Shown here piece after piece: positions 1 through 17,209 of a stretch of DNA of 21,424 bases (position 1 is the first letter of the stretch; every line of letters starts with the position of its first letter). A program made the translations under genes and the position numbers. The stretch is from a virus. The stretch covers positions 1-21,424 of IMG/VR virus record IMGVR_UViG_3300027852_000188; one strand, written 5' to 3'. The notes beneath the pieces were generated by a model. The model made no database searches, was not told the DNA's origin, and saw nothing but the letters and a program-made list of their open reading frames with translations.

Positions 1-827
1 TTCAACATTGCGTTTTGCTGTGCCCACTGATTCATCTGATTTGTTTGCTGTTGCTGGCCCCATCCGCTCATAAATTGATTAGCGGCATTACTTATGACAT
101 TTCCCCAAATATCGGCCTGATTGGTTGCTCCTGTAGCTGCCACATTGCCTTGATTCATTGCTATATTTCCGGCATTCGTAGCAAATTGGTTACCTGCATT
201 TGTTGAGGCATTTACAGCATTCTGTCCCATACCTGCTATAGTCCCAAATTGGTTAAATTGCTGCTGGTTTTGTCCCATTCCCCGATTCCATGCTTGATTA
301 TACTGATCAGCATTAAAACCTTCTTGACCCATGTAATTATTCCACATCTGATTATATCTACCAAACTGATTGCCATATTCTTGTGAGGCTGCACCTTGCC
401 CATAATCCATAAGAGCTTTCCCTGTGTTGCCAGAAAAATATCCACCACGAGCAGCCGCGCTTGATTCAACACCAGCCAGCCCTTGGTTTAATCTCCATTG
501 ATAACTTGGGTCAGCCTGTGGCCCGGTTGTATTGAACTGAAATTCTCCAGGACTTTGTAATGAGGAAACGGGCTTATATCCTGCATCTGCTGTTGGGTCT
601 ATTGATCCAGCCTCACCAGCTATTCTGCTTATTTCAGGCAAAGCCTCAGCACCATACTGCCTATATGGAGCAAGTTGTGACTGTGATGTATCCCACTGAT
701 TTTGCTGAAAACCAAGCGCATCCCTTGCACTTTGTTGTTGTGCCTGTGTTGCTCTATCCTGAGCCTCTGATTGAATTATTCCAGATACTACACCTGCTCC
801 TGCTGAGACCGCTGCTAACCATGGCAT
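1..827 (-). CDS. DNA transfer (ejection) protein, N-terminal part, cut by window edge
   Basis: The reading frame is open for 275 codons from an ATG at 827 to the left edge, so the C-terminus is missing. SD GGAGG lies 8 bases upstream, and the start overlaps the GNAT stop as TAATG. The protein starts MPWLAAVSAG with a Gly/Ala-rich hydrophobic segment (about residues 3-18), then a Gln-rich helical stretch (about 20-55), then an Asn/Gln/Gly-rich region with repeated NQF, AGN and NAG elements to the edge. This layout (MPW start, small-residue membrane-like segment, QQQ-rich helix, an APYRQYG-type motif, Asn/Gly-rich tail) is typical of podovirus internal proteins annotated as DNA transfer proteins, which leave the capsid with the DNA and help it cross the envelope. 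The family call is from memory; position after the tail genes agrees with it. Confidence 0.65.
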   Translation of the reverse strand, partial: MPWLAAVSAGAGVVSGIIQSEAQDRATQAQQQSARDALGFQQNQWDTSQSQLAPYRQYGAEALPEISRIAGEAGSIDPTADAGYKPVSSLQSPGEFQFNTTGPQADPSYQWRLNQGLAGVESSAAARGGYFSGNTGKALMDYGQGAASQEYGNQFGRYNQMWNNYMGQEGFNADQYNQAWNRGMGQNQQQFNQFGTIAGMGQNAVNASTNAGNQFATNAGNIAMNQGNVAATGATNQADIWGNVISNAANQFMSGWGQQQQTNQMNQWAQQNAML

Positions 828-1258
828 TATAGTGTCCTCCTTATTCCTATACTCTGTTTCGTAAATCCGTGACGTTCCCAAAAATCCAAACGATCAGGAA
901 AACATATTGCTGAAAATTCAACTGCCTTGTTCCCTTTCGCGCTTTCAATTGCTTTTTCCCAAAGTTGACCACTAACATCTGTTCTTCTATAATCAGGGAC
1001 AACATAAAAATAATTTATTGTTGCCACCCAAATACCTTTTCCTGGCTCTGGCTGCATAGCATAGTCAACAAACCCAATAATAGTATCGTTTGCCTCAGCC
1101 ACAAACATAAAATATCCATCATACCGCATGAGGCTCACAGCATAATCACGCCACATTTCCAGGTCGGGATTCAATGTTGGCTCTGACTCTTTTACCATAC
1201 ACCTCCACAACCTACTAAGTTCAAACAGATCAGTCACCAACCCACGCCTAATAATCAT
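827..1258 (-). CDS. GNAT-family N-acetyltransferase
   Basis: A 143-aa protein with the GNAT fold signature: N-terminal MIIRRGLVTDLFEL (strand 1 and helix 1), FVAEANDTIIGFVDY (strands 2-4, about residues 52-66), the acetyl-CoA-binding motif A YVVPDYRRTDVSGQL (about 85-99), and a closing FWERHGFTKQSIGIRR segment. The length is normal for a single GNAT domain. Motif A here is degenerate, with RRTDVSGQL where the usual form is R-G-x-G-x-A/G. The start ATG overlaps the upstream stop (ATGA) and lacks its own SD, so translation is probably coupled; the stop overlaps the DNA-transfer gene by one base. The substrate is unknown. Placement in the tail block suggests acetylation of a virion protein or a host protein, which is inference. 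Confidence 0.75.
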   Translation of the reverse strand: MIIRRGLVTDLFELSRLWRCMVKESEPTLNPDLEMWRDYAVSLMRYDGYFMFVAEANDTIIGFVDYAMQPEPGKGIWVATINYFYVVPDYRRTDVSGQLWEKAIESAKGNKAVEFSAICFPDRLDFWERHGFTKQSIGIRRTL

Positions 1259-1434
1259 TCTGGTGCCGATGGGGGTGCTACTATGGGAGCAGGTGGAATC
1301 GGAGTCGTAAGCGCCTTGCTCAAGTCAACCAGTGCCTGAGAAAACATCAATGTGTTTTCGTCTGGTGCTTTGTTTACCCTTCCAAGCATCACCATTAAAT
1401 TTTTGTGCTGTTCCTCTGTCAATTCAATTAGCAT
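1255..1434 (-). CDS. 59-aa hypothetical protein with Pro-rich tail
   Basis: A short gene filling the gap between the GNAT gene and the 194-aa gene. The ATG at 1434 has a strong SD (AAAAGGAGG, about 5 bases spacing). The stop TGA overlaps the GNAT ATG as ATGA. The protein starts MLIELTEEQHKNLM, is probably helical over residues 1-42, and ends in a Pro/Ala-rich tail (PIPPAPIVAPP). It has no cysteines and no membrane segment. I do not recognise the family. The SD, the coupled overlap and the exact fit between neighbours support a real gene. Confidence 0.7.
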   Translation of the reverse strand: MLIELTEEQHKNLMVMLGRVNKAPDENTLMFSQALVDLSKALTTPIPPAPIVAPPSAPE

Positions 1435-1446
1435 AATGCCCTCCTT

Positions 1447-2031
1447 TTAATTTTTGTCAGTATGCTCGTACCATGATAATTTCACAGATACCACATTGTT
1501 GTCAGCATAAGACGTAACCCGCAACAAGTATTTTGTGTTTTGTTTTAAAACGTGTTCGTTGTCTCCTCTGGAGCCACCACCAGAAACAATACTATTAATA
1601 CCAGAACCGGTGCTGACTCCAAACATACTTTGCAATATAGCGTTTCCGTCTGCTGCATCATCGTTAGAAGCATTTAACAAGGTTGTGTTCGCTGTTGCAG
1701 AATTACGGTTATTATTATAGGCTGTTTTAGCTGCCCCGGCAGTATGTGTGCACGTCTCAAAAAGCTGGACAAGTGTCTGTAGTGCTCCGTCCACACTAAA
1801 AACCAAATGTGGCCACAACGTAGTGTTTGGAACGGTTATTAATATATCTATAGTATTTGTATCATCCAAATCAGCATCGTATTCTGTATATTCAAAATGA
1901 CTACCAGAATGTATTTCATGATGTTCATATTCTATCGTCTGTAATGAATTTGTAGAGGAATCTATACGCACCTCATCCGTTTCGCCTGCGCCACTGCCCC
2001 ATCTAGCTGTTAATAATTTCCATAAACTCAT
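1447..2031 (-). CDS. Conserved phage virion-type protein, 194 aa
   Basis: I place the start at ATG 2031 (MSLWKLLTARWGSGAG), 4 bases after the fibre gene stop, with a GGTGGTGA SD-like site overlapping that stop. The frame stays open upstream to 2085, but the extension lies inside the fibre gene and lacks an SD. The protein has a polar N-terminus (RIDSSTNSLQTIEYEHHEIHSG), a repeated-strand region and an Ala/Asn-rich central stretch (about residues 100-130). It ends in YLLRVTSYADNNVVSVKLSWYEHTD, which resembles a beta-sandwich edge. The TIEYEHHEIHSGSHF segment resembles a family of unknown function found beside tail genes in environmental phages; this recognition is from memory. The likely role is a minor virion or tail-tip component. 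Confidence 0.7.
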   Translation of the reverse strand: MSLWKLLTARWGSGAGETDEVRIDSSTNSLQTIEYEHHEIHSGSHFEYTEYDADLDDTNTIDILITVPNTTLWPHLVFSVDGALQTLVQLFETCTHTAGAAKTAYNNNRNSATANTTLLNASNDDAADGNAILQSMFGVSTGSGINSIVSGGGSRGDNEHVLKQNTKYLLRVTSYADNNVVSVKLSWYEHTDKN

Positions 2032-2035
2032 ATCG

Positions 2036-4054
2036 TCACCACCAATGTTCCGTCGTTTCAAAATGCAAGTCCAAAACTTCGCCATCAGACAATAGTTGTG
2101 TTGCTGATCCCATCACATTCTCAGCCCCGTTACCGTCTATAGTAACATCATTACCACTTGTTCCGCAATTCACTATTTTATAGTGCAGACCATTTATTCC
2201 AGCTGGCAGCGTTATTGTTATTGCTCCGCCGTCTGTGTCAATCATGGCTATTTCATCGGTTGCATCAAGCGTTGTGGCGACTGTTTCTCTAGTTGTTTTA
2301 CAAATCCTATTTGCGCTTGTTTTAACTGAGCCATCAAAATCACCAGCACCAGCACAATATAATTCGGCCACATTCAGTATTGGGGCATTGACTTCCACGC
2401 CAATATCAGCCACGAGATTTAGCCATCCATCAAGACTTGAATAGGCATAAATTGCCGTGTCTCTAAAAGCTATTCGTGAATCCGTATCCATCAACAGCAC
2501 ACCAGTACCGACCACTTTTGGATTTAAAACAAGATTGGTTCCGTTATACACCAAACTAGCATCCTGCCCCGCACCAAACAACAACACATCTGAATCACTC
2601 GGAAGCTGTACGTCTCCTACTAATTTTAGTGGTCCGCTATCAGGTGTTATTGTAAGCCCACCAGTGGATTCAGCTGATAATAAGTTTTCATAAACTCCTG
2701 CAATATTAACAACAATGTTGTCTATTATCCATCCAGCTTGGTATCCTGACATTGCGATTGATCCGGTCGCATATGTTGCATCTACTATGTCGTTGGTAGC
2801 AACAGGAGAATTATTGTAATATATTTTAATTGATGTCCCTAATGCCACTATTTTTACATGTGTTACAGGATTTGGTGATGTTTGAGCATCTAATAATGTA
2901 GCACCTCCCGGAAACGCGGGTGATCCTGCTTTATATATTTTAGCTTGTCCGGCAACTCCAGGCAAGCATTGCATCCAATAAGTAGTTGCTCCGTTATGTC
3001 TAAATCCAAAATTCAAGCGAGAACCAGTCACAGAAACATCAAAATCAACTGAGTAATTAGTCCAAGCTAATCCTGCGTCTAACACAAACGCACCTGCCCA
3101 ATTTGCTACAGTTGCCTTGCACTCGCCAGATGGTGCAGCTGTTGCTTTAAAAGTTCCAACCTCAGCCAAATATTGATACCATGTCCAACCAAATAAAGTC
3201 ATGTCGTCACCAGGAGAAAAACCAGAAAAATCTTCCGAATAAAGCACAGTAAGTGATCCATATCTAACTTTTAATGTTTCATTTACCCGTAATATTTTTC
3301 CTGCATCATCATAATAAAGACCATCGTTGTTTTCGGTTATGACTCCTAAGGCATCAGAAAACAATACAGATCCGTCAGTCATACCGATATCAGCATCTCC
3401 AGAAACCGTTAAATCAACACAAGTTATGGTGTTACCAGTAATATCACCCGTTGTGGTTAAATCTTCCGCGCCTATATCAATTGTGACATTCGCGTTTGAT
3501 CCATCAAGCTTAAGATACTGCGTGGCGTGGGTATGGCCATCATTTACAACATACAGATTGTTTCCAGTGATTGCAAGGGTTGCATCATGGTTGAATGTGA
3601 TGTCTTGCCCTGCAATGGTTAGCGGTGCACCTGCCACGGTCGTGGCTGTATGTGTTGGGAAATTAAGATTGAGCTTGCTTTCATCGATAGCAGCAGCCGG
3701 GTCCACATATGCATTGGTAAGCTGGCCAACAGCAAACGCATCCGCACCAGTACATAAAATCAACTGATTGGGCGAGGTAACCAAAGCAGCCAATGCTTGT
3801 AATGTTGCATCAAGAGTTGGTGACCCATGGGTGTGGTCACCACGGGAAAAGGTTGCTGCTGCGCCTGCATTTGGTACCAATGCAAAAGTTGTTTCAGCAA
3901 CAACAGAACCGGATGGTGTTATTGGTATACCAGTTCCACCACTCAGAGTCAAAAGTGTTCTGGTCACGTCTGAATACCAAGCACGCCAAGCAGGAGAGGC
4001 TATTATTCCATTCGCCTTATTAAATAAGCCATCATTGAATGGAGGAGCACCCAT
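2036..4054 (-). CDS. Tail fibre / receptor-binding-type protein with lectin-like domain
   Basis: A 672-aa protein from ATG 4054, overlapping the upstream stop as TGATG, with a run of seven G (4062-4068) as SD. A TTG one codon earlier is in frame but less likely. Order: a short N-terminal segment with FNDGLFNKANGIIASPAW, likely for virion attachment; a region with HTH motifs (GDHTHG, DGHTHA) typical of fibres; a strand-rich repeat region (DLTTTGDITGNTITCVDLTVSGD); a compact domain at about 271-451 starting YSEDFSGFSPG with FGFRHNG and IKIYYNNSPVA, resembling concanavalin-like sugar-binding or family 16/DUF1080-like folds; then fibre repeats and a C-terminal ATDEIAMIDTDGGAITITLPAG module. It lies directly after the gp10-like gene, where P22 has its needle gene. 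Host recognition is the likely role; receptor unknown. Confidence 0.75.
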   Translation of the reverse strand: MGAPPFNDGLFNKANGIIASPAWRAWYSDVTRTLLTLSGGTGIPITPSGSVVAETTFALVPNAGAAATFSRGDHTHGSPTLDATLQALAALVTSPNQLILCTGADAFAVGQLTNAYVDPAAAIDESKLNLNFPTHTATTVAGAPLTIAGQDITFNHDATLAITGNNLYVVNDGHTHATQYLKLDGSNANVTIDIGAEDLTTTGDITGNTITCVDLTVSGDADIGMTDGSVLFSDALGVITENNDGLYYDDAGKILRVNETLKVRYGSLTVLYSEDFSGFSPGDDMTLFGWTWYQYLAEVGTFKATAAPSGECKATVANWAGAFVLDAGLAWTNYSVDFDVSVTGSRLNFGFRHNGATTYWMQCLPGVAGQAKIYKAGSPAFPGGATLLDAQTSPNPVTHVKIVALGTSIKIYYNNSPVATNDIVDATYATGSIAMSGYQAGWIIDNIVVNIAGVYENLLSAESTGGLTITPDSGPLKLVGDVQLPSDSDVLLFGAGQDASLVYNGTNLVLNPKVVGTGVLLMDTDSRIAFRDTAIYAYSSLDGWLNLVADIGVEVNAPILNVAELYCAGAGDFDGSVKTSANRICKTTRETVATTLDATDEIAMIDTDGGAITITLPAGINGLHYKIVNCGTSGNDVTIDGNGAENVMGSATQLLSDGEVLDLHFETTEHWW

Positions 4055-6495
4055 CAAGAAGCCCCCCCTTTCAACTCCATATAAGCACCGATCAGCACTT
4101 TTTTAACTGCGGCTGTGATGGCTATCCGGAAACAACGATTTCTGACAGCACCCAGTCTGCGCCAAATCATCCTAGTCAGATATTGACCAAGCATTCCCAT
4201 GCTCGTTGGGTGATCATTTGACCAAGTATGGCCGCCATCTTTGGACCAAGAAAGCAAGGCGCGAGGGTCAATCTGCTGTGCAACCTGTATTTTGGTCACA
4301 TTATTAGAAGCATAACCTACAAACCAAACATAATAACCGCTAGCCATTCCATAATATATATCTGTTCCAACACCAACAGTTGCCGTCACAGCGTTGGTCG
4401 TGATATTAATTCTGTTGGCTATCGAAGGGAAAACATTAGTCCAAATATCCACACCATCAAAAACAATAGCCCTGTATACTACTCCAGCAAGTGTGGCCGT
4501 TACAGTGTCTGTAGCAACATCTATTTTGGATATAGAACCCACTACCTCATTAACAACCCATAACGACGAATTATCAAAAACACTCTGCAAGGGTTGTAGT
4601 CCAACAACAACAGTAGCATCAACAACATCTGTGGCAATATTGATTTTAGATACATTTGCTGATCCCCAATTCGAAATCCAAAGGTGAGTATTGGCTTTTG
4701 TGATATAATATGGTTGTGTTCCAACTGCAATGGTTGCACTGACTGTATCTGTGGATATGTCTATTTTAGACACATTATCTGAACCAAAATTACAAGTATA
4801 TACATATCCAGCATCATAAAATAGATACCTAGGACTAGTCCCCACTATAACATTTGTAACAACATCAGTAATTGGATTGATTTTTTTTACTGTTGTACCA
4901 CCAGCAGACTCATCATCAACCCACACAGAAATTCCATCACTTATAATCTCTATTGGAGTACCGCCAACGGGTATGTTTGATACGATTGTATTTGTAGTCA
5001 GGTCAATTTTAACAACAACCCCAAAACTCGTACTAGCAACAAATAAATAGTTTCCCTGAATAGCCATACCGCGCCCTTGATAAATGCCAAGGCTGATAGT
5101 TGTTTTTTTATCAGTAACTTTATTGATTATTGTTACATTATTGTTTGGCAAGCTAGTACTTGATACATATATAAAATTGTCTTTTTCAATAATATGTATC
5201 GGGCCACCTTCAACCGTTATTGGGGTTACTTTCGACACTATCCCTGTGAGGGGAGCCAGTGATCCCACCCCAGTCTCTGCATCTAACTGTAATTTGCTAA
5301 TAAACATATTAACATTGTTGTCATCAATTGGAGGGGCAACACGAACGCTGGCAATTGGTTCGCCATTGTCAGTATAGTAATCCTCAGACATTTCATATAT
5401 TTTACCACCCACATAAGAGCCTACAAAATGTTTCCCCCAAGCGTGTGCATAAGCATTCCCAATATGTCTATTAACTTGGTATGGATCTCCTGAATAGTAG
5501 GAGCGTTCATGGCATAACCCGGTTGTTGCATCATAGACCCAGGTAGCATTTGCAGAGGGAAAGGTCAAAACATAAAACTCATGCCCATTGTCAGTATAGC
5601 AATACCCCCACGCATCTGACACCTCAGTATATTTTGAAATATGGTAATTGATAGATTGTGGAGTGACTATTTCCATGCCATAACCATTGACCATACCAAC
5701 GCCAAATATTTCACCAGCATTACCATTGCGCTGAGAAACTAAGCAGAATATTGTGTTGTTACCCTTGGCAATTGAGTGCGGCGCGATTGTCCCGTAATCA
5801 ATAACAGCCATCCTTGAAAAAGGGAATGGGTTTGATGTTCCGTCTGGCACCCATATCTCTGCACTGTATTCACCAAACAACCATGCCTCATTATGATTAT
5901 TAACTACACAATTAAGGTTATCTGGATAAGAGTCTGCTGTAGAGAAAGCCAGTGCCGGCCACACAGTTCCATCATACAAATTTGAAATAGCAACCTCTGC
6001 ACCACCTTTGTCAATCATGAAATACCCACCAATAAAGGCAATCGTTTGGGCTGGAACTGCAAAGCTGTTAAAAGCAAACGTGCTAACATTAACAACATAA
6101 ACATTAACGCCATCAACAAAAGCCAGTTGGTGTGCTATCCCGCCACCAACCCCATAAAGCCCATTGTCAGCCATAGACACACGGCCATCAAGCGTGGCCA
6201 ATTCAACTTGGTTTCCTGAACCCGCATCAACAATAGGGAATATGTCCTTTGCAGCATTTACTGAATAAAGTTTGTTGCCAGATACAAAATAGATCAGATT
6301 ATTAAAAAAGTGTGCACATCGGATCGGACCCAAGGTGGTGTCTACATACAACAATAGCCCAGGAGTTCCCACCAGCGACCCAACAGATTTGCTGTCTCGA
6401 GGGTTTAATTCTGGGTACAGGTTTATGCACCTAGAGGCATTTATATTTGTGCTGCGTCCCTGATATCCTGGTCCTATGATTCCATACTTTGCCAC
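4054..6495 (-). CDS. P22 gp10-like packaged-DNA stabilisation / tail protein with inserted YVTN propeller
   Basis: An 813-aa protein starting at GTG 6495, two bases after the upstream stop, with SD GGGAGA inside that gene's end. The N-terminal part (about 1-408) reads as the gp10 family: GPGYQGRSTNINASRCINLYPE, LVGTPGL, DGTVWPALAFSTADSYPDN and EYSAEIW. The C-terminal part (about 741-813) has the usual ending: DPRALLSWSKDGGHTWSN, SMGMLGQYLTRMIWRRLG. Between DAETGVG and this ending sits an extra stretch of about 330 residues made of about eight YVTN-type blades (e.g. VSKIDISTDTVSATI, VGTQPYYITKANTHLWISN). Without the insert the protein is about 480 aa, close to the 472 aa of P22 gp10. gp10 plugs the portal-gp4 channel after packaging; the propeller probably projects from the tail tube and may bind a surface ligand (inference). 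Confidence 0.85.
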   Translation of the reverse strand: MAKYGIIGPGYQGRSTNINASRCINLYPELNPRDSKSVGSLVGTPGLLLYVDTTLGPIRCAHFFNNLIYFVSGNKLYSVNAAKDIFPIVDAGSGNQVELATLDGRVSMADNGLYGVGGGIAHQLAFVDGVNVYVVNVSTFAFNSFAVPAQTIAFIGGYFMIDKGGAEVAISNLYDGTVWPALAFSTADSYPDNLNCVVNNHNEAWLFGEYSAEIWVPDGTSNPFPFSRMAVIDYGTIAPHSIAKGNNTIFCLVSQRNGNAGEIFGVGMVNGYGMEIVTPQSINYHISKYTEVSDAWGYCYTDNGHEFYVLTFPSANATWVYDATTGLCHERSYYSGDPYQVNRHIGNAYAHAWGKHFVGSYVGGKIYEMSEDYYTDNGEPIASVRVAPPIDDNNVNMFISKLQLDAETGVGSLAPLTGIVSKVTPITVEGGPIHIIEKDNFIYVSSTSLPNNNVTIINKVTDKKTTISLGIYQGRGMAIQGNYLFVASTSFGVVVKIDLTTNTIVSNIPVGGTPIEIISDGISVWVDDESAGGTTVKKINPITDVVTNVIVGTSPRYLFYDAGYVYTCNFGSDNVSKIDISTDTVSATIAVGTQPYYITKANTHLWISNWGSANVSKINIATDVVDATVVVGLQPLQSVFDNSSLWVVNEVVGSISKIDVATDTVTATLAGVVYRAIVFDGVDIWTNVFPSIANRINITTNAVTATVGVGTDIYYGMASGYYVWFVGYASNNVTKIQVAQQIDPRALLSWSKDGGHTWSNDHPTSMGMLGQYLTRMIWRRLGAVRNRCFRIAITAAVKKVLIGAYMELKGGAS

Positions 6496-6497
6496 GA

Positions 6498-7229
6498 TTA
6501 TCTCCCTGTCATTATGTTTGATCTTTCAGGTACAGGCAACCAAAGGTCTGCTATTTCCTTTGTCTGTGATGCGTTGATTTTCTCGATTGCACTCATTGTC
6601 TGATCAGCAAAACGCAAAACCTCTCCTGGTGTTGAAAGTCCGTATTCAGTTGCTAACAAAGGTGACAGATTGAAAATGATTGCAGCCTTATACACGTCCT
6701 CCATTGTGATATTGGTATCCAAATCAGCAATTAAAGTCAGTGGCTTTTCAGAAAACATATAGATTGTATAAATGACATCCGGAACTGGATAAAAAATCAA
6801 GGTTGTTCTCTGGGCCGTCTGCTGTGTTTCACCAGGGTCTTGGTAAAGCCTATCCGGACGGCCTGGAGTTGTTTTTACTGTCAAATCATTATATTGACCC
6901 GTTGTGATTATTTGAACAGAATAGTCATTCCCGGTTGAATCCCTGACAAATGCTGAGTTGATTTTGTGTGGTTTTATGGTGTCAAAATCTGTTGGCAATG
7001 CTACAGACGATACACCCATGGTATACGATGCCTGAGCTGCAACAAGAGGGAAATTTTCTTGAATTTCGGCCAGAGTCATAAGATTCCGGGCACCCCACAA
7101 GGACAACATCAAGTTCAACGAATCAAGGCCATCGTTCATCATTTCAGCAGATGGCGTTTCGCCCTCAGCCCCCACACCGATTAATTTCAAACTCTTTTTT
7201 ACCATATCCCGCGCAGTACTAAGGGCCAT
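6498..7229 (-). CDS. P22 gp4-like head-to-tail adaptor
   Basis: A 243-aa protein resembling the P22 tail accessory factor gp4 family. Seen: STARDMVKKSLKLIGVGAEGETPSAEMMNDGLDSLN near the start (conserved family N-terminus, helical), then LMLSLWGARNLM, ASYTMG, a PGRPDRLYQDPG loop, an FYPVPDVIYTIYMFSEKPL strand region, and a C-terminal helical part with EYGLSTPGEVLRFADQTMSAIEKINA. The start is placed at ATG 7229 with AAAGGTGG upstream; a GTG four codons earlier (7241) lacks an SD. It is longer than P22 gp4 (166 aa), as many distant members are. It lies directly upstream of the gp10-like gene, as in P22. The role is to bind below the portal ring and form the channel on which gp10 sits. Whether it has cell-wall hydrolase activity cannot be judged here. 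Confidence 0.8.
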   Translation of the reverse strand: MALSTARDMVKKSLKLIGVGAEGETPSAEMMNDGLDSLNLMLSLWGARNLMTLAEIQENFPLVAAQASYTMGVSSVALPTDFDTIKPHKINSAFVRDSTGNDYSVQIITTGQYNDLTVKTTPGRPDRLYQDPGETQQTAQRTTLIFYPVPDVIYTIYMFSEKPLTLIADLDTNITMEDVYKAAIIFNLSPLLATEYGLSTPGEVLRFADQTMSAIEKINASQTKEIADLWLPVPERSNIMTGR

Positions 7230-7261
7230 TTCAATCGCCACCTTTCTGATTCACAAACCAA

Positions 7262-8137: not shown

Positions 8138-8617
8138 TTATATTTGATTTAAAAAAGCAAAGTTCCCAAACACTTCTGTTGCTTTTTTGTTATACGCTAT
8201 AGCTGCTACTTTTGGATCATCAAACGATCCTAAATAGTGCGTTTTCCCATCACATTGAATTCTAGCCCTATATTTTTTTTCTGGCTTTCGATAGGATACA
8301 CCTTTGAAATTTGTTGTATTGTTGAAATATTTGCTTTTGTTCTTTAGATTTAGTGATCTGGTTACAGCCCTTAAATTGCATTTCTGATTATTAAGTCTGT
8401 TTCTATCAACATGATCTGCTTCTTTTTCTTTAAAATCCAGTCCATCAATACCAATAATAACACGGGACATATGTATACAGTGCCTTTTGCCATCAACAAA
8501 ATTCGACCATCTCCGAGCATATCCACAGTGATAAAACCATGAATGACAGTTTAATATTTCAAACCAATCATCATCAACTAAAGCAAGCTTGCCTTGCGTA
8601 AGTTTGATTTTTTTCAC
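8138..8617 (-). CDS. HNH endonuclease with AP2 DNA-binding domain
   Basis: A 159-aa protein starting at GTG 8617, overlapping the upstream stop as GTGA, with AAAGGTGG as SD. An N-terminal segment MKKIKLTQGKLALVDDDWFE leads into an HNH domain: SRVIIG (about 51-56) and DHVDRNRLNNQKCNLRAVT (about 68-86), where H69, an Asn near 76-77 and N81 fit the HNH core. An AP2-like DNA-binding domain follows at about 104-157 (FKGVSYRKPEKKYRARI, LGSFDDPKVAAIAYN). This is the usual layout of free-standing HNH/AP2 homing endonucleases in phages, which spread by cutting related genomes lacking them. Both domains appear intact. The tight 4-base overlap means it is well fitted into the operon; a role in packaging cannot be excluded. 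Confidence 0.9.
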   Translation of the reverse strand: MKKIKLTQGKLALVDDDWFEILNCHSWFYHCGYARRWSNFVDGKRHCIHMSRVIIGIDGLDFKEKEADHVDRNRLNNQKCNLRAVTRSLNLKNKSKYFNNTTNFKGVSYRKPEKKYRARIQCDGKTHYLGSFDDPKVAAIAYNKKATEVFGNFAFLNQI

Positions 8618-9300
8618 TTTAAACCACCTTTTCTAAAAACAGCAATTCCGTTCCAAAATGTAGGATGACCATTTCCAGAAGTTAATTGTTCAATTATTGT
8701 TTCCCATTCATTCTTGCTCTGATTGAAAAATTCTTTAGTCGCGTCTCTTGGTGCATCCCAATTCCAATCATCAACCATAACAATGGCATTATCAGCCAAG
8801 AATGGTTCAGCGATATTCAGCCCATCAAGCTGATTCTGATAGTCATGAGCACCATCATAGAAGTAAAAGCCTATTTTGTTTACAGGCTTATGCATTGCAT
8901 TGAAATACTGTTTGTAGTCCATCTCAAAGAAATGGTGGTTTTCACTACGTGCATCCAAGTATCTTTTTCTGAACTCCATACGTGGCCCACCAAACTCAGA
9001 GAAATTATCAATACCAATGCAGTACTTGTCTGGATTGCTAACCATGCCAGCCAACAATGAAAATCCGTGCCAAACACCTACATTCACGTAAAACTGATCA
9101 GATGGCATTTCACGCACAGCTTTATTGATCAATGACCCAATAGCAAAGGTAGACATACGAGGCATTATACAAAGATCAGATAATCCACCAACAACCATTT
9201 TTTCAGGAATATCAGTGTTTGATATTTCCAGATTTTGCTGAGGGTCCATTGGTGAAACTGTATTAAATCCTATTGAGCAGGCGTATTCGCGGAAGTCCAT
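8614..9300 (-). CDS. Class I SAM-dependent methyltransferase (Methyltransf_24-like)
   Basis: A 228-aa protein from ATG 9300 with an excellent SD (AAGGAGGTG); the gene overlaps the previous methyltransferase gene by 31 bases. Visible motifs: the SAM-binding loop VNVGVWHGFSLLAG (about 72-85), motif II YCIGIDNFSEFGG (about 93-105), FYFYDGAHDYQNQLDGL (about 145-161), and VMVDDWNWD (about 174-182). The DGAHxY and DDW pattern is typical of Methyltransf_24-type enzymes, often found in sugar and glycan biosynthesis clusters. The substrate is not visible. Together with the neighbouring glycosyltransferase and second methyltransferase it suggests O-methylation of a sugar or glycan, which is inference. 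Confidence 0.8.
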   Translation of the reverse strand: MDFREYACSIGFNTVSPMDPQQNLEISNTDIPEKMVVGGLSDLCIMPRMSTFAIGSLINKAVREMPSDQFYVNVGVWHGFSLLAGMVSNPDKYCIGIDNFSEFGGPRMEFRKRYLDARSENHHFFEMDYKQYFNAMHKPVNKIGFYFYDGAHDYQNQLDGLNIAEPFLADNAIVMVDDWNWDAPRDATKEFFNQSKNEWETIIEQLTSGNGHPTFWNGIAVFRKGGLK

Positions 9301-9857
9301 CCCGGCACCTCCTTAATTGGTAGAAGTACAAATTGCAGCAAAGATCCATCATCATTATTCCATCCAACAGTAAAATCACCTTTGTAAATATCACGAAAGT
9401 CAGTCATCATGGTCTGCCCACACTGCTTGTACGATTCCTGAGACAGAAATGCAAGAGTAATCAGGTTTATCACTCGACGGTGAGAAGGATCACCCCACTG
9501 TTGAGGGCTGAATGTAACAGTATCTGTTTTGGGATCGATTATGCCTTTTTCGCTAGGAACAAGTGCCAAAAAGAACCCGCCTGGTTTGATTATCCGGTGG
9601 AACTCCTGAAACTGAGCAAAGAACGACTTGTAATCGCCCTGATCGCTCAAGTGCTCCAGAACACCATAAGCATGAATTTCATCAAAAGTATTGTCCTCAA
9701 AAGGATATGGCAAAACTTCCAAATCATGAAGCACATCCGGCTTGCAATCTTCGTTCATGTCAAGTGTTACCACTTCGCCATCCCATGAGGTTTGATCACC
9801 CACCCATATCCTTTTGATTCTGCTGTGACCGCATCCGACAAGCAAGTTTTTTTTCAT
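9270..9857 (-). CDS. Class I SAM-dependent methyltransferase (Methyltransf_11-like)
   Basis: A 195-aa protein from ATG 9857, overlapping the glycosyltransferase stop as ATGA, with GGGGTGA as SD. Motif I is LLVGCGHSR at residues 5-13, which lies almost at the N-terminus. Motif II region VVTLDMNEDCKPDVLHDL follows (about 29-46), then FEDNTFDEIHAYGVLEHL (about 53-70) and IIKPGGFFLALVPS (about 89-102). These are standard for Methyltransf_11 enzymes acting on small molecules or sugars. The HAYGVLEHL segment corresponds to the usual post-motif-II catalytic region. The C-terminal third is unusual in sequence and may define substrate choice. It is coupled on both sides to cassette genes. Confidence 0.8.
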   Translation of the reverse strand: MKKNLLVGCGHSRIKRIWVGDQTSWDGEVVTLDMNEDCKPDVLHDLEVLPYPFEDNTFDEIHAYGVLEHLSDQGDYKSFFAQFQEFHRIIKPGGFFLALVPSEKGIIDPKTDTVTFSPQQWGDPSHRRVINLITLAFLSQESYKQCGQTMMTDFRDIYKGDFTVGWNNDDGSLLQFVLLPIKEVPGWTSANTPAQ

Positions 9858-10597
9858 GGCTTCACCCCGTCACGCTCTGGGTAAGCATGACTATATGGTG
9901 TTTCCAATCGGCTTCTCTGGTTTTTTCCACTTTTCAAATATTCATAAAAATTACCCTCAAAATTACGCTGTCCACAATGGATAAAAGTGATATTTGGCAT
10001 CGCGTAGCATTTACCACCAGCCTTTTCCCACAGCTTACAGAATCCATAATCATCTCCAAACCAACGCCCATCCTCCACATAGGTTCCAAAAAGATTATAG
10101 GTAACTTTTCCACTTAGAGCATCCGTATAGGCCAGATCTGGGTTTGCTGATGTTAACTTTTCTATTGCACTGCGTTTGATTTTCATAAACCCTGTAGGCA
10201 ATCCAGACGCAAGCAACACTCCGTTTTCGTTGATCACGTGACCTTGAACGTCGGTTTTGAGCATTACAGGAAACACATCTTCTGCTTGTTTTTTTGGATA
10301 GATACCGGCTATGACTTCCTCGTTTGCACCAATAAGCATCTTAAAATCATCCGGCTGGAATCCTATGTCAGCATCAATAAAGATAATTTCAGTTGCATCA
10401 GATTCCATGAATTTCCTGATCAGGTTGTTACGGGCCATAGTGACATAAGGTAGTCCAACCTCAAAGCAAACATCAGAAGATATATTGTTTTCAATCAATA
10501 CCTTCATCGCTTTCATAAGTCCTTGGACACAGGGCACAAACACCTTTTTGTCATAACACGGTATCGCAACGAAAATTTTGAACTTTTCTTTTTCCAT
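9854..10597 (-). CDS. GT-A-type glycosyltransferase (GT2-like)
   Basis: A 247-aa protein from ATG 10597 (MEKEKFKIFVAIPCYDKK), with SD AAAGGA about 8 bases upstream. A further 45 codons are open upstream to 10732 but run into the previous gene, so I reject that longer start. Seen: a nucleotide-binding-type first strand (IFVAIPCYD), VTMARNNLIRKFMESDATEIIFIDADIGF with the metal-binding DxD at about 75-77, SGLPTGFMKIKRSAIE, and EDGRWFGDDYGFCKLWEKAGG (about 175-195), which fits the acceptor/catalytic ED region of GT2-like enzymes. Such proteins are frequent in environmental phages. It opens a four-gene cassette with two methyltransferases and follows the probable decoration protein gene, so it may glycosylate a virion protein or alter a host glycan. 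Confidence 0.85.
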   Translation of the reverse strand: MEKEKFKIFVAIPCYDKKVFVPCVQGLMKAMKVLIENNISSDVCFEVGLPYVTMARNNLIRKFMESDATEIIFIDADIGFQPDDFKMLIGANEEVIAGIYPKKQAEDVFPVMLKTDVQGHVINENGVLLASGLPTGFMKIKRSAIEKLTSANPDLAYTDALSGKVTYNLFGTYVEDGRWFGDDYGFCKLWEKAGGKCYAMPNITFIHCGQRNFEGNFYEYLKSGKNQRSRLETPYSHAYPERDGVKP

Positions 10598-10611
10598 TAG
10601 GTATGTCCTTT

Positions 10612-10676
10612 CCCACGCGGTTAGATTGTGGGCATTATTTTCCGGGATACCCAGCCCGGGTTCCGCGTGGGCGGAA
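10612..10676 (-). promoter_or_regulatory. GC-rich structured leader with alternative stems before glycosyltransferase gene
   Basis: The 106-base gap between the repeat-protein stop (10704) and the ATG at 10597 is strikingly GC-rich compared with its surroundings. A perfect 9-bp inverted repeat (10612-10620 with 10663-10671) encloses a 5-bp stem (10642-10646 with 10655-10659). The outer arm overlaps a competing 6-bp hairpin with a 4-base loop (10661-10666 with 10671-10676), so both cannot form at once. The downstream arm ends only a few bases before the SD AAAGGA. No U run follows any stem. It may control translation of the cassette or protect the coat/decoration mRNA 3' end. Confidence 0.45.
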
Positions 10677-10703
10677 TCGTTCAGAGAGAACCTATTTCCT
10701 CCC

Positions 10704-12281
10704 TTATGCGCCTTCAGCCAATCCGGTTTCATTCATGACTGCTTGTTGCTCTTTGGTCTGTTCCAGAGTCCTCTGTGAAGACAAGGAGAACGGAACAGCA
10801 ACCCAACTACCAGGTATACCTGTACCAGCACCCGGTTCCATAAAGCAACCAACCGTATACTGCTCAAGTGCAGCCGGCGTGATAATCGCAGCAGTAACAT
10901 TCTCAAAGGTAATACCGAGAGTGTTTGCAGCAGTAACACGACAACCACCAATTGCCAGCCCTGGTTGATGGGATGGTTTGTTGATTTGTACAGTTGCACC
11001 AGCAGGCAATCCGGTCACAGTGAAAGTTTCCTCTGCACTGGTATTCGCAGCAACTGACACGGGGCTGAGAATAGGCCGGAATATTTTTAGTGGAGCCACA
11101 GGGACTTGTCTGACAACTGTCAGACCATAGACTTCCGCTGCTGTAGGTGTTAAATTACCACCCGTGAAATTCCCAAATCCAACACCGATAGTATTAGCGG
11201 CAGATACACGCGCACCGGACATTAAAATACCAGCTTGCAAGGTTGGTTTTTGACAACCAACAACAATATCAGTTGCTACAATTCCGTTAAGAGTAACAGA
11301 CTGTTCTGCTGTGGTATTTGCTGCAACTAGAGCCAAAGTTCCAGCTTGCATACCAAACGATACAGTATTGCTTATTGCAGGGACTTCATTCATGCAACAG
11401 ATGGTGTAGTTCTCTGCGGTCGGGGTAACATTTGCAGCTGTAGCATTGACAAAAGAAATGGCAAGCTGGTTGTTCTCAGCAACACGCACATTGCTGATTG
11501 CAATACCTGCTGTTGCTGTTGGTTTGGTAACCATAGCCACCATGCCTTTTTCAATGATATTTCCACCAATGGCCGTAACAGTTGGCGCAACATAACCCTG
11601 TCCAGCATCCTCAATCCATACTCGATCAATAACACCAAGAGCGGTAACATCACAACCCAACAGCGCACCAGCTCCACCTTTTGCATCAACCACAGCCAAC
11701 GTAGGCACTTGGAAAAAACCAGTACCACCAGTCACCAGTGTTGCGGTGATGACTTTACCATAACCATCAACAGTAAGCGTGATGGCTGGTTGAGTATTTG
11801 TGATATTGAACACCGTTTCAGATGAACTGTCCGCAGGTACCAATGCAGGAGTCAATGACTGAATGTGCGTTGGCGCACCACGTAATACAACCACATTATA
11901 ATCCTCACTTGCGGTTGGGGTAAGAAAACCAGCCACAGTATTGGAATAGGTCATAGATACAGTATTGGCTGCGCTGATGCGCCCTGTATGTATACCCATA
12001 CCAGCCTGAGCAGTTGGTTTATTGACCGCTGCCAAAAAGTCCGTTGTTGCTGGACCATTTCCGGCAGTAGTTCCAACCGTCAAAGCTTGCTCTGCGGTTG
12101 TGATCGTTGCCACTGATACAGCAGACAAGTCTTCTTGGTAGGTTACAACTTGACCCCCATCAGATGCAGGCACTGGTGCCTGTGCTGGGTTGGATCGTGG
12201 GTCCTTACTGAACTTCGTACCATCCGGATGAGTTCCATCCAGGTATTTGATGTTTTTCCACTTCATATTATTGGTGCTCAT
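10704..12281 (-). CDS. Repeat protein, probable capsid decoration protein, 525 aa
   Basis: A 525-aa protein with ATG 12281 and SD AAAGGAGAATAACAAC, 35 bases after the coat gene. After a polar N-terminus (1-50) come four related units of about 80 residues: about 52-134, 143-299, 316-391 and 405-481. Each has a KPTxQxG motif, then RVSAANT, a short alternating-strand segment, TPTAxExY and a final strand; this looks like a beta-sandwich (Ig-like). Unit 2 is interrupted at about 165-245 by a separate G-rich repeat module (GGTGFFQVPT; AGQGYVAPTVTAIGG). The C-terminus is helical and Gln/Glu-rich. It has very few charged residues. Ig-like repeats and its place next to the coat gene suggest a head decoration protein; a role as fibre or lectin is possible. 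No exact family known to me. Confidence 0.7.
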   Translation of the reverse strand: MSTNNMKWKNIKYLDGTHPDGTKFSKDPRSNPAQAPVPASDGGQVVTYQEDLSAVSVATITTAEQALTVGTTAGNGPATTDFLAAVNKPTAQAGMGIHTGRISAANTVSMTYSNTVAGFLTPTASEDYNVVVLRGAPTHIQSLTPALVPADSSSETVFNITNTQPAITLTVDGYGKVITATLVTGGTGFFQVPTLAVVDAKGGAGALLGCDVTALGVIDRVWIEDAGQGYVAPTVTAIGGNIIEKGMVAMVTKPTATAGIAISNVRVAENNQLAISFVNATAANVTPTAENYTICCMNEVPAISNTVSFGMQAGTLALVAANTTAEQSVTLNGIVATDIVVGCQKPTLQAGILMSGARVSAANTIGVGFGNFTGGNLTPTAAEVYGLTVVRQVPVAPLKIFRPILSPVSVAANTSAEETFTVTGLPAGATVQINKPSHQPGLAIGGCRVTAANTLGITFENVTAAIITPAALEQYTVGCFMEPGAGTGIPGSWVAVPFSLSSQRTLEQTKEQQAVMNETGLAEGA

Positions 12282-12316: not shown

Positions 12317-13612
12317 TTACCCAAATACAATGGTTGACAAATCTGGCCGTACAAGCGTTGGCACCATGATTGCATCAATACGAGTGGCACAACGGTCATT
12401 GGTCCAATCCGAAGCCTGCCACAAGCGCAAGGTGATACCTTCATGCGTAACCATAACGCACTTTTTAGCATCATCATACAGTGGCAAATCCACGGTGGTC
12501 ATAACAATTGAATCCTTTTGATGTGCTAGATTCAACACAGTTGCAGTGCTTGCAGCACCGGAAAAGGTCACAACAGCACCAGCCAAAGGCAACGCTTCAA
12601 CTGTTCCATTGACATTGATTGGTAGCAATGGGTATCTTTTCACAAGAGTTGTACCACCAACCAGTTTTTCAGGATTTGACAAAATTATTTGTGGTGCAAT
12701 GCTTAGCGTAGCTTGACCAGCTGCGTTTGCAGTAGCTGCTGCTGTAACAACAAACATACGCAAGAAAAAACGCGGTTGCTGATTCATAGGATTAACCGCA
12801 TTCACACCAGCAACAGTGAAATGCTCACCAGCTGATACGGTTGCGTTTGCACCAAGGCCAGTAACTTGAATGGTGCTATCACCATCAACACTACCAACCA
12901 ACACAGTACCATTTGTGCGCGTTCCCGTAGTGATCGTGGGAATGTTCACATTTTCCACAAAATCCAAATTCATTGCGCGAGTGACCAAGCCATTACGATA
13001 TTGGCCACTAATATCACGAGCTGGATTCTGTAATGCAACGGTTGCGGATGCAGATAGAGTCATGGCTGCTGAATTCAACGCCATAGTCCGGTCAATGTTT
13101 TGTGCACCCATCTCTGTCAGCACAGCCCCAGCATTACCATAGATATTGGGAGAGGTTGTCATCAACAAACCAGCACCACCAGCAGTTCCGGGAGTTGTGC
13201 CCGGAGTCCCTACCATATTAGGGACCTGTAGCGCAAGTTTTAACACATCCTCTTCCATTTCATTGGCAATGGAAGCAGCAATTTGTGTGAGATTGGTTTT
13301 TTCGTTGAATTGCTCAACAGACATCTCAAGCTCACGGCTACCAAATTCAATAGCAGATTGATATTGATGATTGTCCGTCACTGTGATTGGCAGAGTTTTT
13401 TCCACGTAAGGCCGGACTTTTGCAACAGGTCCGCGAGTTACAGGAGTATTCTCTATCCATTTCACATTCAAAGTATCACCGACCTTTGCACCCTCTTTGG
13501 CGAACTGGTCAGAATACTGCCTTTTGATTCCTTTGATAACACTCAATTGATTTGTAAGCTGGTACAGCAATTCTTTTGCTACACCACCTATATTTTTAAC
13601 GGTATTAGCCAT
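12317..13612 (-). CDS. Major capsid protein (P22 gp5-like coat)
   Basis: A 431-aa protein, almost the length of P22 gp5 (430 aa). Seen: N-terminal MANTVKNIGGVAKELLYQL helix, VGDTLNVKWIENTPVTRGP, an E-rich long-helix region SAIEFGSRELEMSVEQFNEK, ASIANEMEEDVLKLALQVPN, a strand-rich insertion-domain region (about 190-290), and the FFLRMFVV and APQIIL segments. The C-terminal part has KRYPLLPINVNG, TTVDLPLYDDAKKCVMVTHEG, LRLWQASDWTNDRCATRIDA and the terminal VPTLVRPDLSTIVFG. The layout fits the P22 coat group of the HK97 fold. ATG 13612 has SD AAGGAG, 8 bases upstream. It follows the scaffold gene, as in P22. Confidence 0.9.
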   Translation of the reverse strand: MANTVKNIGGVAKELLYQLTNQLSVIKGIKRQYSDQFAKEGAKVGDTLNVKWIENTPVTRGPVAKVRPYVEKTLPITVTDNHQYQSAIEFGSRELEMSVEQFNEKTNLTQIAASIANEMEEDVLKLALQVPNMVGTPGTTPGTAGGAGLLMTTSPNIYGNAGAVLTEMGAQNIDRTMALNSAAMTLSASATVALQNPARDISGQYRNGLVTRAMNLDFVENVNIPTITTGTRTNGTVLVGSVDGDSTIQVTGLGANATVSAGEHFTVAGVNAVNPMNQQPRFFLRMFVVTAAATANAAGQATLSIAPQIILSNPEKLVGGTTLVKRYPLLPINVNGTVEALPLAGAVVTFSGAASTATVLNLAHQKDSIVMTTVDLPLYDDAKKCVMVTHEGITLRLWQASDWTNDRCATRIDAIMVPTLVRPDLSTIVFG

Positions 13613-15031: not shown

Positions 15032-17209
15032 CTAAGACGCTCCAGGAACACCAACATCTGCTGGGTGATTAGGGGTAAACAATTCTTCAAGCTTGTTTAT
15101 GATCTCAGAATTTATACCCTCTTTGCTCTCTGCCAATTGATTCATTAATTTTACAGTTTCGTTTTTTAGCTTAACTTCCTCTGTCTTTGACTTCTGCATT
15201 TCAAGTTCCAGCTTGGCCATATCAATCTTGTCCTCGGTTGAGGGAGGCTGTGGTTGTGCTGGTTCAGCATCCTCCTGCTCTGGTAAAACACCAGGCGGCA
15301 CGCGCTTCCGGATACTATCAGCCCACTCTTTGGCTCCAGGGAAGTCCAACATATCAACCAAATGCCACAAATCACTTGGGTTGATTTTCCCAGCAACTTG
15401 AGCAATCTTCATGATGTTCTCTGCTGCCTCTTGGCGCTGGGTCTGGTATGCCGGCCCGGTTGTAACAACGATGCCATACTTTCCCTCAGTGATATTGTTA
15501 AAAGGAGTATTCATATTACCGTTACCCTTGCGCTGGGCTTTTCTCAACGCCTTCTTATTAACACCGGTATATTTATCTGGTTCCTGCTTCATTGTCTGCA
15601 TTACATTTCCGATGGTGGTATTGATTGGCACTGTAGAATCCTTGTCACTAAAACCACGCAGACGGACATCACGCGGAGTGTCATAAAAATGAGGTATAGC
15701 ATCATTCAGTATCTTTCCAAGCTGAGCCACAAACCCAGACCGATTGTCATGGTAAACATAGGTTGACGTATCACCAGGGGTTTGACGTGCAATAATTGCC
15801 TTACCTGACACAGCAGAGCTTTTGTCACCAACATCATCGTTGTACATACCAACTGAATCCTTGAGGTTTTGTTTGCATTCTCCAAGAATGGTGTACATAG
15901 CAACAGGCATCTGGCCCATCTGGTTTTGCTCTGGTGCTTTACCGGGGAATTTTGGATCATGGTTATATAGCAAAATAGGGAAATTCTCTGCATTAGCAGA
16001 TAAATAATCATTCTTGTATCCCTCGATCATCTTTGCACTTGCTTTCCATGGGGTCTTTGGCATGAGTGCAACAATCTCCCACAGAGAGGTGTATGCGTTG
16101 TTGATTAATTTTTGTGGATCTTGAGCATCCTTAAACAATCCATCATACCGACGCTCTCCGGCAATATTGGAATATTCGCCAGTCACAAAAGCTACTGGAA
16201 TAAGCTCACCAGGCCATTCATTTGATTCAAGTATTTTCTCAGCGGTTATTTTCAACCAAATAACATGCGGTTCTTTGATGTCACGTTTTTTTAATATCTC
16301 AGGAACTTCATCAAGTTCAATGGTAGACTCATCAAAGGCCACACCAGCAGCAAGAGCCTCAGCTCTCTGCGTATCCTGCTCAGCCTTGGCTTGAGTTATC
16401 GTTTGTGTCATTCCAGCAATGAACTTTTCAGCAGCACTGCTCTCCATGTTCTGACCATCAGACAGTTGCACCATGTGTTTGACTGTATACTTTTTATAAT
16501 AATATTCTCGTACAATAATAGCGTTTTGGCTATACCACCGCTCGCGCTCTGTGTTGGTAATTTCATTGCCTAGCGTAGCAGTAGGGATGTTTTCCTCCCC
16601 ATACTCTTCAATGAAATCCTCTTTAGTCATCGGGGTATCAACGAAAAAGAACTCTCCATCAGAGTAAAAACGACTATCAGAGGCCATTGGATCAGGATGA
16701 ACAGCAAAAGGATTGTCGAGTGCTTTGATGTAAAGCTCCTGCAAAAACGGATCATCCTCATCATCGGTGTATCTTGATAAAACACGCCCAGCACCAAAAC
16801 CACAGTCAACCAACATTTTACCGGCATGGTCATAGATGACCTCAGCATCAGAGATGTACTCAATATTTTTGATCATCCCGGCCTTGATTTCTGCGTTGTC
16901 TTTGCTGGCCTTACCATTCGCAGGAACAACCTTGATCTGCACCTTGTTACGGCGCATCTCACCACAGACCTGATTGGAGAACTTGGACATCTCATTGATG
17001 GTCAATGCTGGACGGCCAGCCGCTTCACGTTTATCTTTCTGTTTTTCGGTCCACTGTTCACCATACTTAAATTTCAATAGCTCAATGGCTTTTGTGAATG
17101 ATGCATTAAAAGCATCAACACTTCTGTCAAATTGCTTTTTGGCAAGTCTTAGCCGTTTTTCTTCCTCTTTCTCTGAAAAAATCACCTTTTGTTTGTCCGC
17201 GAGATCCAT
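15032..17209 (-). CDS. Portal protein (P22 gp1-like)
   Basis: A 725-aa protein, the same length as the P22 portal. Seen: N-terminal helical MDLADKQKVIFSEKEEEKRLRLAKKQ, LLKFKYGEQWTEKQKDKREAAGRPALTINEMSKFSNQVCGEMRRNK (about 44-89; conserved in the family), IKVVPANG, GFGAGRVLSRYTDDEDDPFLQELYI, PFAVHPDPMASDSRFYSDGEFFFVDTPM, WPGELIPVAFVTGEYSNIAG, YDGLFKDAQDPQKLINNAYTSLWEIVALMP, KAIIARQTPGDTSTYVYHDN, and a C-terminal helical Glu/Lys/Gln-rich region (about 660-725) corresponding to the barrel. SD AGGAGGG precedes ATG 17209. As a dodecameric ring it forms the DNA entry channel for the terminase motor and later the base for gp4. Confidence 0.9.
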   Translation of the reverse strand: MDLADKQKVIFSEKEEEKRLRLAKKQFDRSVDAFNASFTKAIELLKFKYGEQWTEKQKDKREAAGRPALTINEMSKFSNQVCGEMRRNKVQIKVVPANGKASKDNAEIKAGMIKNIEYISDAEVIYDHAGKMLVDCGFGAGRVLSRYTDDEDDPFLQELYIKALDNPFAVHPDPMASDSRFYSDGEFFFVDTPMTKEDFIEEYGEENIPTATLGNEITNTERERWYSQNAIIVREYYYKKYTVKHMVQLSDGQNMESSAAEKFIAGMTQTITQAKAEQDTQRAEALAAGVAFDESTIELDEVPEILKKRDIKEPHVIWLKITAEKILESNEWPGELIPVAFVTGEYSNIAGERRYDGLFKDAQDPQKLINNAYTSLWEIVALMPKTPWKASAKMIEGYKNDYLSANAENFPILLYNHDPKFPGKAPEQNQMGQMPVAMYTILGECKQNLKDSVGMYNDDVGDKSSAVSGKAIIARQTPGDTSTYVYHDNRSGFVAQLGKILNDAIPHFYDTPRDVRLRGFSDKDSTVPINTTIGNVMQTMKQEPDKYTGVNKKALRKAQRKGNGNMNTPFNNITEGKYGIVVTTGPAYQTQRQEAAENIMKIAQVAGKINPSDLWHLVDMLDFPGAKEWADSIRKRVPPGVLPEQEDAEPAQPQPPSTEDKIDMAKLELEMQKSKTEEVKLKNETVKLMNQLAESKEGINSEIINKLEELFTPNHPADVGVPGAS

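Follow-up and report, generated by a model that had tools for sequence, protein, structure and literature searches.

A predicted YVTN-type propeller in the platform loop of a P22 gp10-type tail hub protein, with a candidate role in cell-surface binding

The nozzle structures of T7 and SU10 established that the gp10-type fold is a propeller whose platform is split between the two ends of the chain (PMC6702177, PMC9509320). Hexamers of gp10 or nozzle proteins close the channel, and large movements are needed to open them (PMC6702177). The common view of gp10 is that of a conserved plug, host specificity being read from fibres and spikes. Some members of the group carry additional domains: in T7 gp12, SU10 gp17 and crAss001 gp44, the gp10-like core propeller and split platform bear nozzle, Ig (immunoglobulin) and crass domains in or next to blades 2-3, with the fibre docks located either at blade 1 or between the propeller and the platform, and none of these additions is presented there as a further propeller within the hairpin of the platform (PMC6702177, PMC9509320, PMC10172136). 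The P22, Sf6, Pam1 and Pan3 hubs have only a short loop at that site (near residue 410 of 472 in P22). Here I describe a gp10-type gene in which a predicted propeller of about 330 residues is inserted in this loop. The gene lies on the minus strand, at positions 4054-6495, of a 21,424-bp stretch of DNA that makes up the entire IMG/VR virus record IMGVR_UViG_3300027852_000188, hereafter the window, and that carries a podovirus structural module encoded on the minus strand.

The gene is a single open frame of 813 codons without interruption, and its GTG start lines up with the ATG of a homologue (L001). Residues 8-412 match phrog_578 ('head closure Hc3', E 6.7e-90) and residues 741-809 match phrog_19101 (E 1.4e-11), in agreement with family alignments. 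A preliminary description of this DNA, made from its letters alone, had proposed that both parts of a gp10 protein are present and that some 330 residues of YVTN repeats separate them. Both proposals hold: the insert alone scores 71.4 bits with TIGR02276 (cut-off 27.85) in four stretches, and eight repeat units span residues 423-742. Its estimate that the protein minus the insert has the size of P22 gp10 is likewise confirmed (about 483 residues versus 471-472 for the P22 chains). The bounds of the insert can be fixed at about residues 412-741 because insert-free relatives run straight across the site. In the 475-residue gp10 of Rhodoferax phage P26218, ...LQVDMQTGVG continues directly into DPQAMLQWSDDGG; in the window, the insertion follows ...LQLDAETGVG and precedes DPRALLSWSKDGG. 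The gene order (portal, scaffold-like, major head protein, adaptor, gp10, fibre, ejection) is that of the P22 gp10/Hc3 family, with P26218 as the comparison. Sequence and model together identify the frame as a complete P22 gp10-type tail hub bearing an insertion. An intein-like insert was considered and rejected upon sequence inspection, the junctions GVG/SLAP and AQQI/DPRA having no HN-C/S/T end.

An AlphaFold model of the window protein, built from 34 sequences, has a predicted local distance difference test score (pLDDT) of 85.1 and a predicted template-modelling score (pTM) of 0.67. Its gp10 part matches P22 gp10 (8eap_D) over 439 of 471 residues, the insert being skipped, with a Z score of 38.2 and a root-mean-square deviation (rmsd) of 2.4. 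P22 gp10/Sf6 gp8, whose genes stand in an order comparable to that of the window, and the Pam1 and Pan3 counterparts (8eap, 8u10, 7sg7, 7eeq, 9vyg) display the same fold over the whole gp10 part, with Z scores of 32.9-38.2. Residues 415-738 of the model match whole eight-bladed propellers (Z about 35), among them the designed Tako8 (308 residues, rmsd 2.2, Z 35.5), Rsa4, Fbw7 and BamB. The insert is predicted to be a separate, closed eight-bladed propeller of YVTN type in a loop of the gp10 fold, as the preliminary description had anticipated. In the T7 and SU10 nozzle structures the gp10-type fold already forms a propeller with a split platform, so the inserted propeller would be the second one in the protein. 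I infer from strand order, rather than from coordinates, that the insertion site is a hairpin loop in the C-terminal half of the platform, downstream of the blades that belong to gp10 itself. The model leaves the relative placement of the gp10 part and the propeller unfixed, given the pTM of 0.67 and a flexible linker between them, weakly predicted at residues 414-419. By analogy with the known hubs, the window protein would form a hexamer and close the channel.

The insert resembles the archaeal YVTN surface-layer propeller (PDB 1l0q, E 3.8e-19) and YncE in repeat type and fold. These are, however, seven-bladed stand-alone or surface-layer proteins, in contrast to the eight blades modelled here within a virion protein. 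Seven blades do not fit the window insert, which has eight repeat units and whose best structural matches are eight-bladed; the YncE-like seven-bladed propeller family PF21783 scores 23.4 bits on it, below the gathering score of 27.1. Unit 8 contains three strands in the sequence, and its fourth strand is probably supplied by residues 423-427. The preliminary description had regarded blades 4-6 as very similar, also at the DNA level, and as the outcome of a recent expansion. This view had to be abandoned. Units 4 and 5 are 47% identical in protein and 56% in DNA, with 10 shared codons versus 7.7 expected; the corresponding values are 38%, 50% and 6 versus 6.2 for units 4 and 6, and 41%, 53% and 6 versus 6.1 for units 5 and 6. 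Tandem Repeats Finder reported no array in the propeller region, and the sole DNA repeat pair there is 33 nt long and 76% identical (at 4351 and 4705). Since blade identities do not exceed 47% in protein and 56% in DNA, and codon sharing is near chance, a recent blade duplication was rejected: the repeats are old.

The same architecture is found in L001 (788 residues) and in L002/L003 (771 residues, one lineage), with the propeller at the same insertion point. These and the following counts come from two profile scans in which the best 80 loci were kept, and are counts among the matches listed rather than prevalences. On this basis the propeller is present in three distinct lineages among about 170 gp10s. 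A presence of the repeats in most gp10-like proteins, which the preliminary description had said would deprive the insertion of its novelty, is therefore not what this sample shows. A scan of genome contigs added one relative, the gp10 of a Methylotenera metagenome-assembled genome, which has no insert. The model of the L002 protein gives the same core match (Z 38.7), and its insert matches the seven-bladed YncE, virginiamycin lyase and 1l0q, in agreement with the seven repeat units of its sequence. Blade number therefore varies among relatives, the insert of the window being modelled with eight blades and that of L002 looking seven-bladed.

Concerning the origin of the propeller, the inserts of the three lineages are 27-31% identical, in contrast to 59-72% for the gp10 cores. 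The three propeller bearers cluster as a single clade (Shimodaira-Hasegawa-like approximate likelihood-ratio test, SH-aLRT, 99) in a tree built from 83 gp10 cores. This clade is nested in a larger one of eight rows, to which a lectin bearer and members without an insert also belong. In a tree of the inserts, which is weak owing to its eight rows, long branches and repeats, the three phage sequences group together (99/98) versus five sequences from bacterial genomes. Tree path lengths from the window to L001 and L002 are about 4 to 9 times longer for the inserts than for the cores. The simplest reading, on weak evidence, would be a single acquisition followed by fast divergence, including that between eight and seven blades. 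A tblastn search of 50,697 phage records with just the insert as query, the low-complexity filter being on, returned nothing at 1e-5. The best match in 399 genomes of one bacterial order, contig L205 (38.5%, 107 bits), scores higher than the other phage inserts do (76 and 54 bits), its near-consensus blades raising its scores. The L205 propeller gene (G058:C102:1886-3826) lies in a prophage-like operon, right after baseplate J-like and tail genes, between a baseplate-wedge gene (phrog_6, E 2e-26) and a tail-fibre-like gene. It is the closest match found to the insert, and its context means that YVTN propellers occur in phage tail-type operons; it differs from the insert in not lying within a gp10 and in having about seven near-identical blades. 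The L205 gene looks like a real recent blade amplification in a phage tail-type gene. Given the grouping of the phage inserts and the fact that the best bacterial-genome match sits in a prophage-like setting rather than in a gene for a surface protein, a recent domain swap with a cell-surface YVTN protein, an exchange of the kind initially suggested, is not supported.

The platform loop is the main insertion site of the gp10 family in this sample. Among 173 distinct gp10 open frames, the linker at the site is shorter than 20 residues in 67, 20-60 residues long in 69, 60-130 in 31 and longer in 6, the tolerated lengths ranging from 3 to 491 residues. In a multiple alignment of 88 dereplicated gp10s, at least 20 extra residues stand at the loop in 44 (46 with the adjacent column), while the next commonest site, that between blades 2 and 3, is used in 5. 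Several unrelated folds occupy the loop: a SPRY domain in L188 (E 4.7e-14), a lectin-like Laminin_G_3 domain in L116 (E 7.8e-17), which belongs to the sister group of the propeller phages, and Big_2 Ig-like repeats in L229 (E 5.1e-18). On the tree of 83 cores, the insert classes require at least 23 changes.

Further inserts were noted at this loop. In L229 (G400:C1:3400-7700, 376-3858, minus strand) an in-frame TAA falls exactly at the insertion site (ETGV*KMSW) and is followed by the in-frame Big_2 Ig segment and the gp10 C end, which could reflect a split gene, readthrough or a sequencing error; at the blade-2/3 site the same protein carries another insert, a large one that gives a weak DUF642-like match. 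L159 appears by eye to be a second SPRY case, with no Pfam match. The inserts of about 100 residues in L027, L034 and L038 contain a GDVDNTG-type motif resembling dockerin repeats, a reading that was dropped as it had no Pfam support; the L034 and L038 cores are 94% identical and their inserts 25%. The motif LLTESGDFLV / LVQEDG recurs in many inserts of 70-85 residues, for instance in L120, L164, L172 and L189.

The inserts diverge much faster than the protein that carries them. In 101 of 108 pairs of 80-99% core identity, which are not independent, conservation is lower in the insert than in the core, the median identities being 57% for the insert, 88% for the N core and 94% for the C core. 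The clearest case is that of L207 and L213, which have lectin-type inserts. Outside the insert their gp10 DNAs are 96-98% identical, with nearly all changes synonymous; identity drops to 40-77% at the nucleotide level over residues ~441-639 and returns to 96%, with sharp edges. BLASTN likewise finds about 380 bp without similarity, flanked by segments of 92.7 and 99.7% identity. A further difference lies in the initial 30 codons of the open frame, some of which precede the start. The drop across the insert amounts to the replacement of a cassette in an otherwise conserved hub protein. Faster divergence or independent exchange, by which a receptor-binding module might be recognised, is thus found here, exchange being seen for the sister lectin insert only. 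L207 and L213 have no obvious tail-fibre gene directly downstream of gp10.

It is fairly probable, by analogy with the hexameric hubs, that six propellers form a ring that binds a ligand on the cell surface and adds to the action of the tail fibre. This reading is favoured because other binding folds share the slot and one of them was swapped in place while its carrier remained constant. The receptor- or surface-binding role put forward in the preliminary description survives in that sense, as the best-supported reading. In such a scheme, one hairpin loop of the platform would have accepted a self-contained eight-bladed YVTN propeller, the loop acting as a cassette site that is short in many phages, holds unrelated binding folds elsewhere, is quick to diverge and is exchangeable. 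I infer that the loop is exposed in the hexamer, and at the surface of the assembled tail, because it tolerates 3-491 residues. The six propellers would ring the tail near the fibre bases and could recognise the host by binding a protein or glycan on its surface, beside the fibre encoded by the next gene; they would contribute avidity or specificity, and perhaps a pull on the platform when the gate must open. Any action of the module on the DNA gate is speculation. Some points weigh against this reading. The swap was observed for a lectin module and not for the propeller; fast divergence alone could reflect weak constraint; and the three propeller phages encode an adjacent fibre, so that the main receptor-binding part may be something other than the propeller. 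With a fibre gene beside gp10 in all three, the propeller probably supplements the fibre.

The same adjacency could also mean that the propeller is a fibre dock, comparable to that of the T7 nozzle, which anchors the product of gene 2036-4057 and makes no contact with the host. All three propeller lineages have, directly downstream, a fibre gene with a matching N-terminal anchor (PPFNDGLFNK..GIIASPAWRAWYS in the window, L001 and L002), and the position may resemble that of the T7-type dock, judging from the literature. Yet an anchor-type gene also follows many gp10s whose loop has 3-7 residues, which means that a fibre can be held without any insert; moreover, the SPRY, lectin and Ig folds found in the slot share no docking surface, and docking surfaces are expected to be conserved, whereas the inserts diverge fastest. 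I regard a dock as rather unlikely. A correlation between the insert and the type of fibre anchor, apparent with a two-sequence profile, was dropped since a variant of the anchor motif is found downstream of other gp10s. Lectin-like and Big_2 Ig-like folds are typical of adhesion to environmental material, and their presence in the slot would also suit a module that binds biofilm matrix, mucus or another polymer and keeps the phage near its hosts. Nothing specific separates this from host binding, but the site beside the tail gate favours cell contact, and environmental binding seems unlikely.

A loop that accepts anything from 3 to 491 residues would also be compatible with a structural decoration that stabilises the tail, or with neutral growth of the loop. 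Four unrelated folds recur as intact domains, however, one cassette was exchanged in a gene whose gp10 core underwent almost exclusively synonymous change, and a neutral insert of 330 residues would be expected to decay, all of which makes this explanation very unlikely. An enzyme (a lyase, lactonase or similar) acting on surface polymers is more improbable still: a weak Vgb_lyase match of the L001 insert (E 6e-4, 19 bits versus a cut-off of 50) and virginiamycin lyase among the structural matches of the L002 insert hint at it, but the scores of all catalytic families stay below their cut-offs, the three inserts have no invariant His or Glu in common, and conservation falls on the structural YVTN positions. 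A gp10 gene joined to a bacterial YVTN gene by faulty assembly can practically be discounted, and was rejected: independent contigs with 63-72% core identity share the junctions and the architecture, and the frame is intact.

Cell-surface binding by the propeller ring has a parallel in the adaptor gp83 of phage DEV, a structural tail protein with an outward-facing insertion of 101 residues that its authors call a lectin-binding domain (PMC10925440); gp83 differs in being an adaptor, in having another fold and in that no exchange has been described. None of the three ingredients, gp10, the YVTN propeller and the insertion of domains into nozzle proteins, is new in itself. The apparent novelty lies in a second propeller, in its site at the platform hairpin and in the evidence for that site as an exchange slot for different binding folds; no description of the site was found in the open-access subset of the literature, which leaves novelty unproven. 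A broader proposal, which I put forward only tentatively, is that the loop is a general recombination site for host-recognition cassettes and furnishes a second, fibre-independent ring on the gate in which binding is coupled to opening. If the loop does carry exchangeable binding domains, host-range prediction from fibres alone would miss part of the recognition machinery, and a module hanging on the gate protein would be a testable candidate for how binding reaches the DNA gate.

The features of the window are listed in Table 1. The product of the gene after gp10, a probable tail fibre, has no match in a Pfam search.

Table 1. Features of the window and subdivisions of its gp10-type gene
Feature	Position	Strand	Basis or remark
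P22-type portal	15032-17209	-	P22_portal E 3e-132
Major head protein	12317-13612	-	phrog_283
Head-tail adaptor (preceding gene)	6498..7241	-	SU10_adaptor PF24175 E 2.1e-6; phrog_637 Ad3
gp10-type tail hub / DNA plug gene with predicted inserted propeller	4054..6495	-	813 residues, GTG start
gp10 N part, residues 1-411	5263..6495	-	N-terminal platform strands and the family's own core propeller
Predicted eight-bladed YVTN-type propeller and linkers, residues 412-741	4273..5262	-	inserted
Repeat unit 1, residues 423-470	5086..5229	-	
Repeat unit 2, residues 471-511	4963..5085	-	
Repeat unit 3, residues 512-552	4840..4962	-	
Repeat unit 4, residues 553-592	4720..4839	-	
Repeat unit 5, residues 593-632	4600..4719	-	
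Repeat unit 6, residues 633-671	4483..4599	-	
Repeat unit 7, residues 672-710	4366..4482	-	
Repeat unit 8, residues 711-742	4270..4365	-	three strands in sequence
gp10 C part, residues 742-813	4057..4272	-	closes platform domain; begins with WSKDGGHTW motif
Probable tail fibre (next gene), 673 residues	2036..4057	-	N-terminal anchor motif
Ejection protein	3-881	-	phrog_598

Several other minus-strand genes of the window, and one tandem repeat, were noted. Judged by eye, a small protein with HNH-like and AP2-like sequence (8138-8617), possibly a homing endonuclease, is encoded between the adaptor-side genes and a methyltransferase-like gene, and two methyltransferase-like genes and one glycosyltransferase-like gene (8614-10732) lie within the structural module; genes similar to the latter set are also present in L001 and might modify the virion or the host surface. 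Adjoining the major head protein gene, 10704-12281 encodes a protein of 525 residues with repeated segments (AEQ..ARVSAANT..TPTA.E.Y), possibly a head decoration or a fibre, which is also found in L001. A GNAT-type acetyltransferase-like gene (827-1258, by eye) stands between the tail and ejection genes, and L001, L091 and L116 have similar genes at the corresponding place. Finally, a 12-bp tandem repeat in 3.9 copies (19104-19150) lies in a small lipoprotein-like open frame, where it encodes a stretch rich in Thr, Pro and Val.
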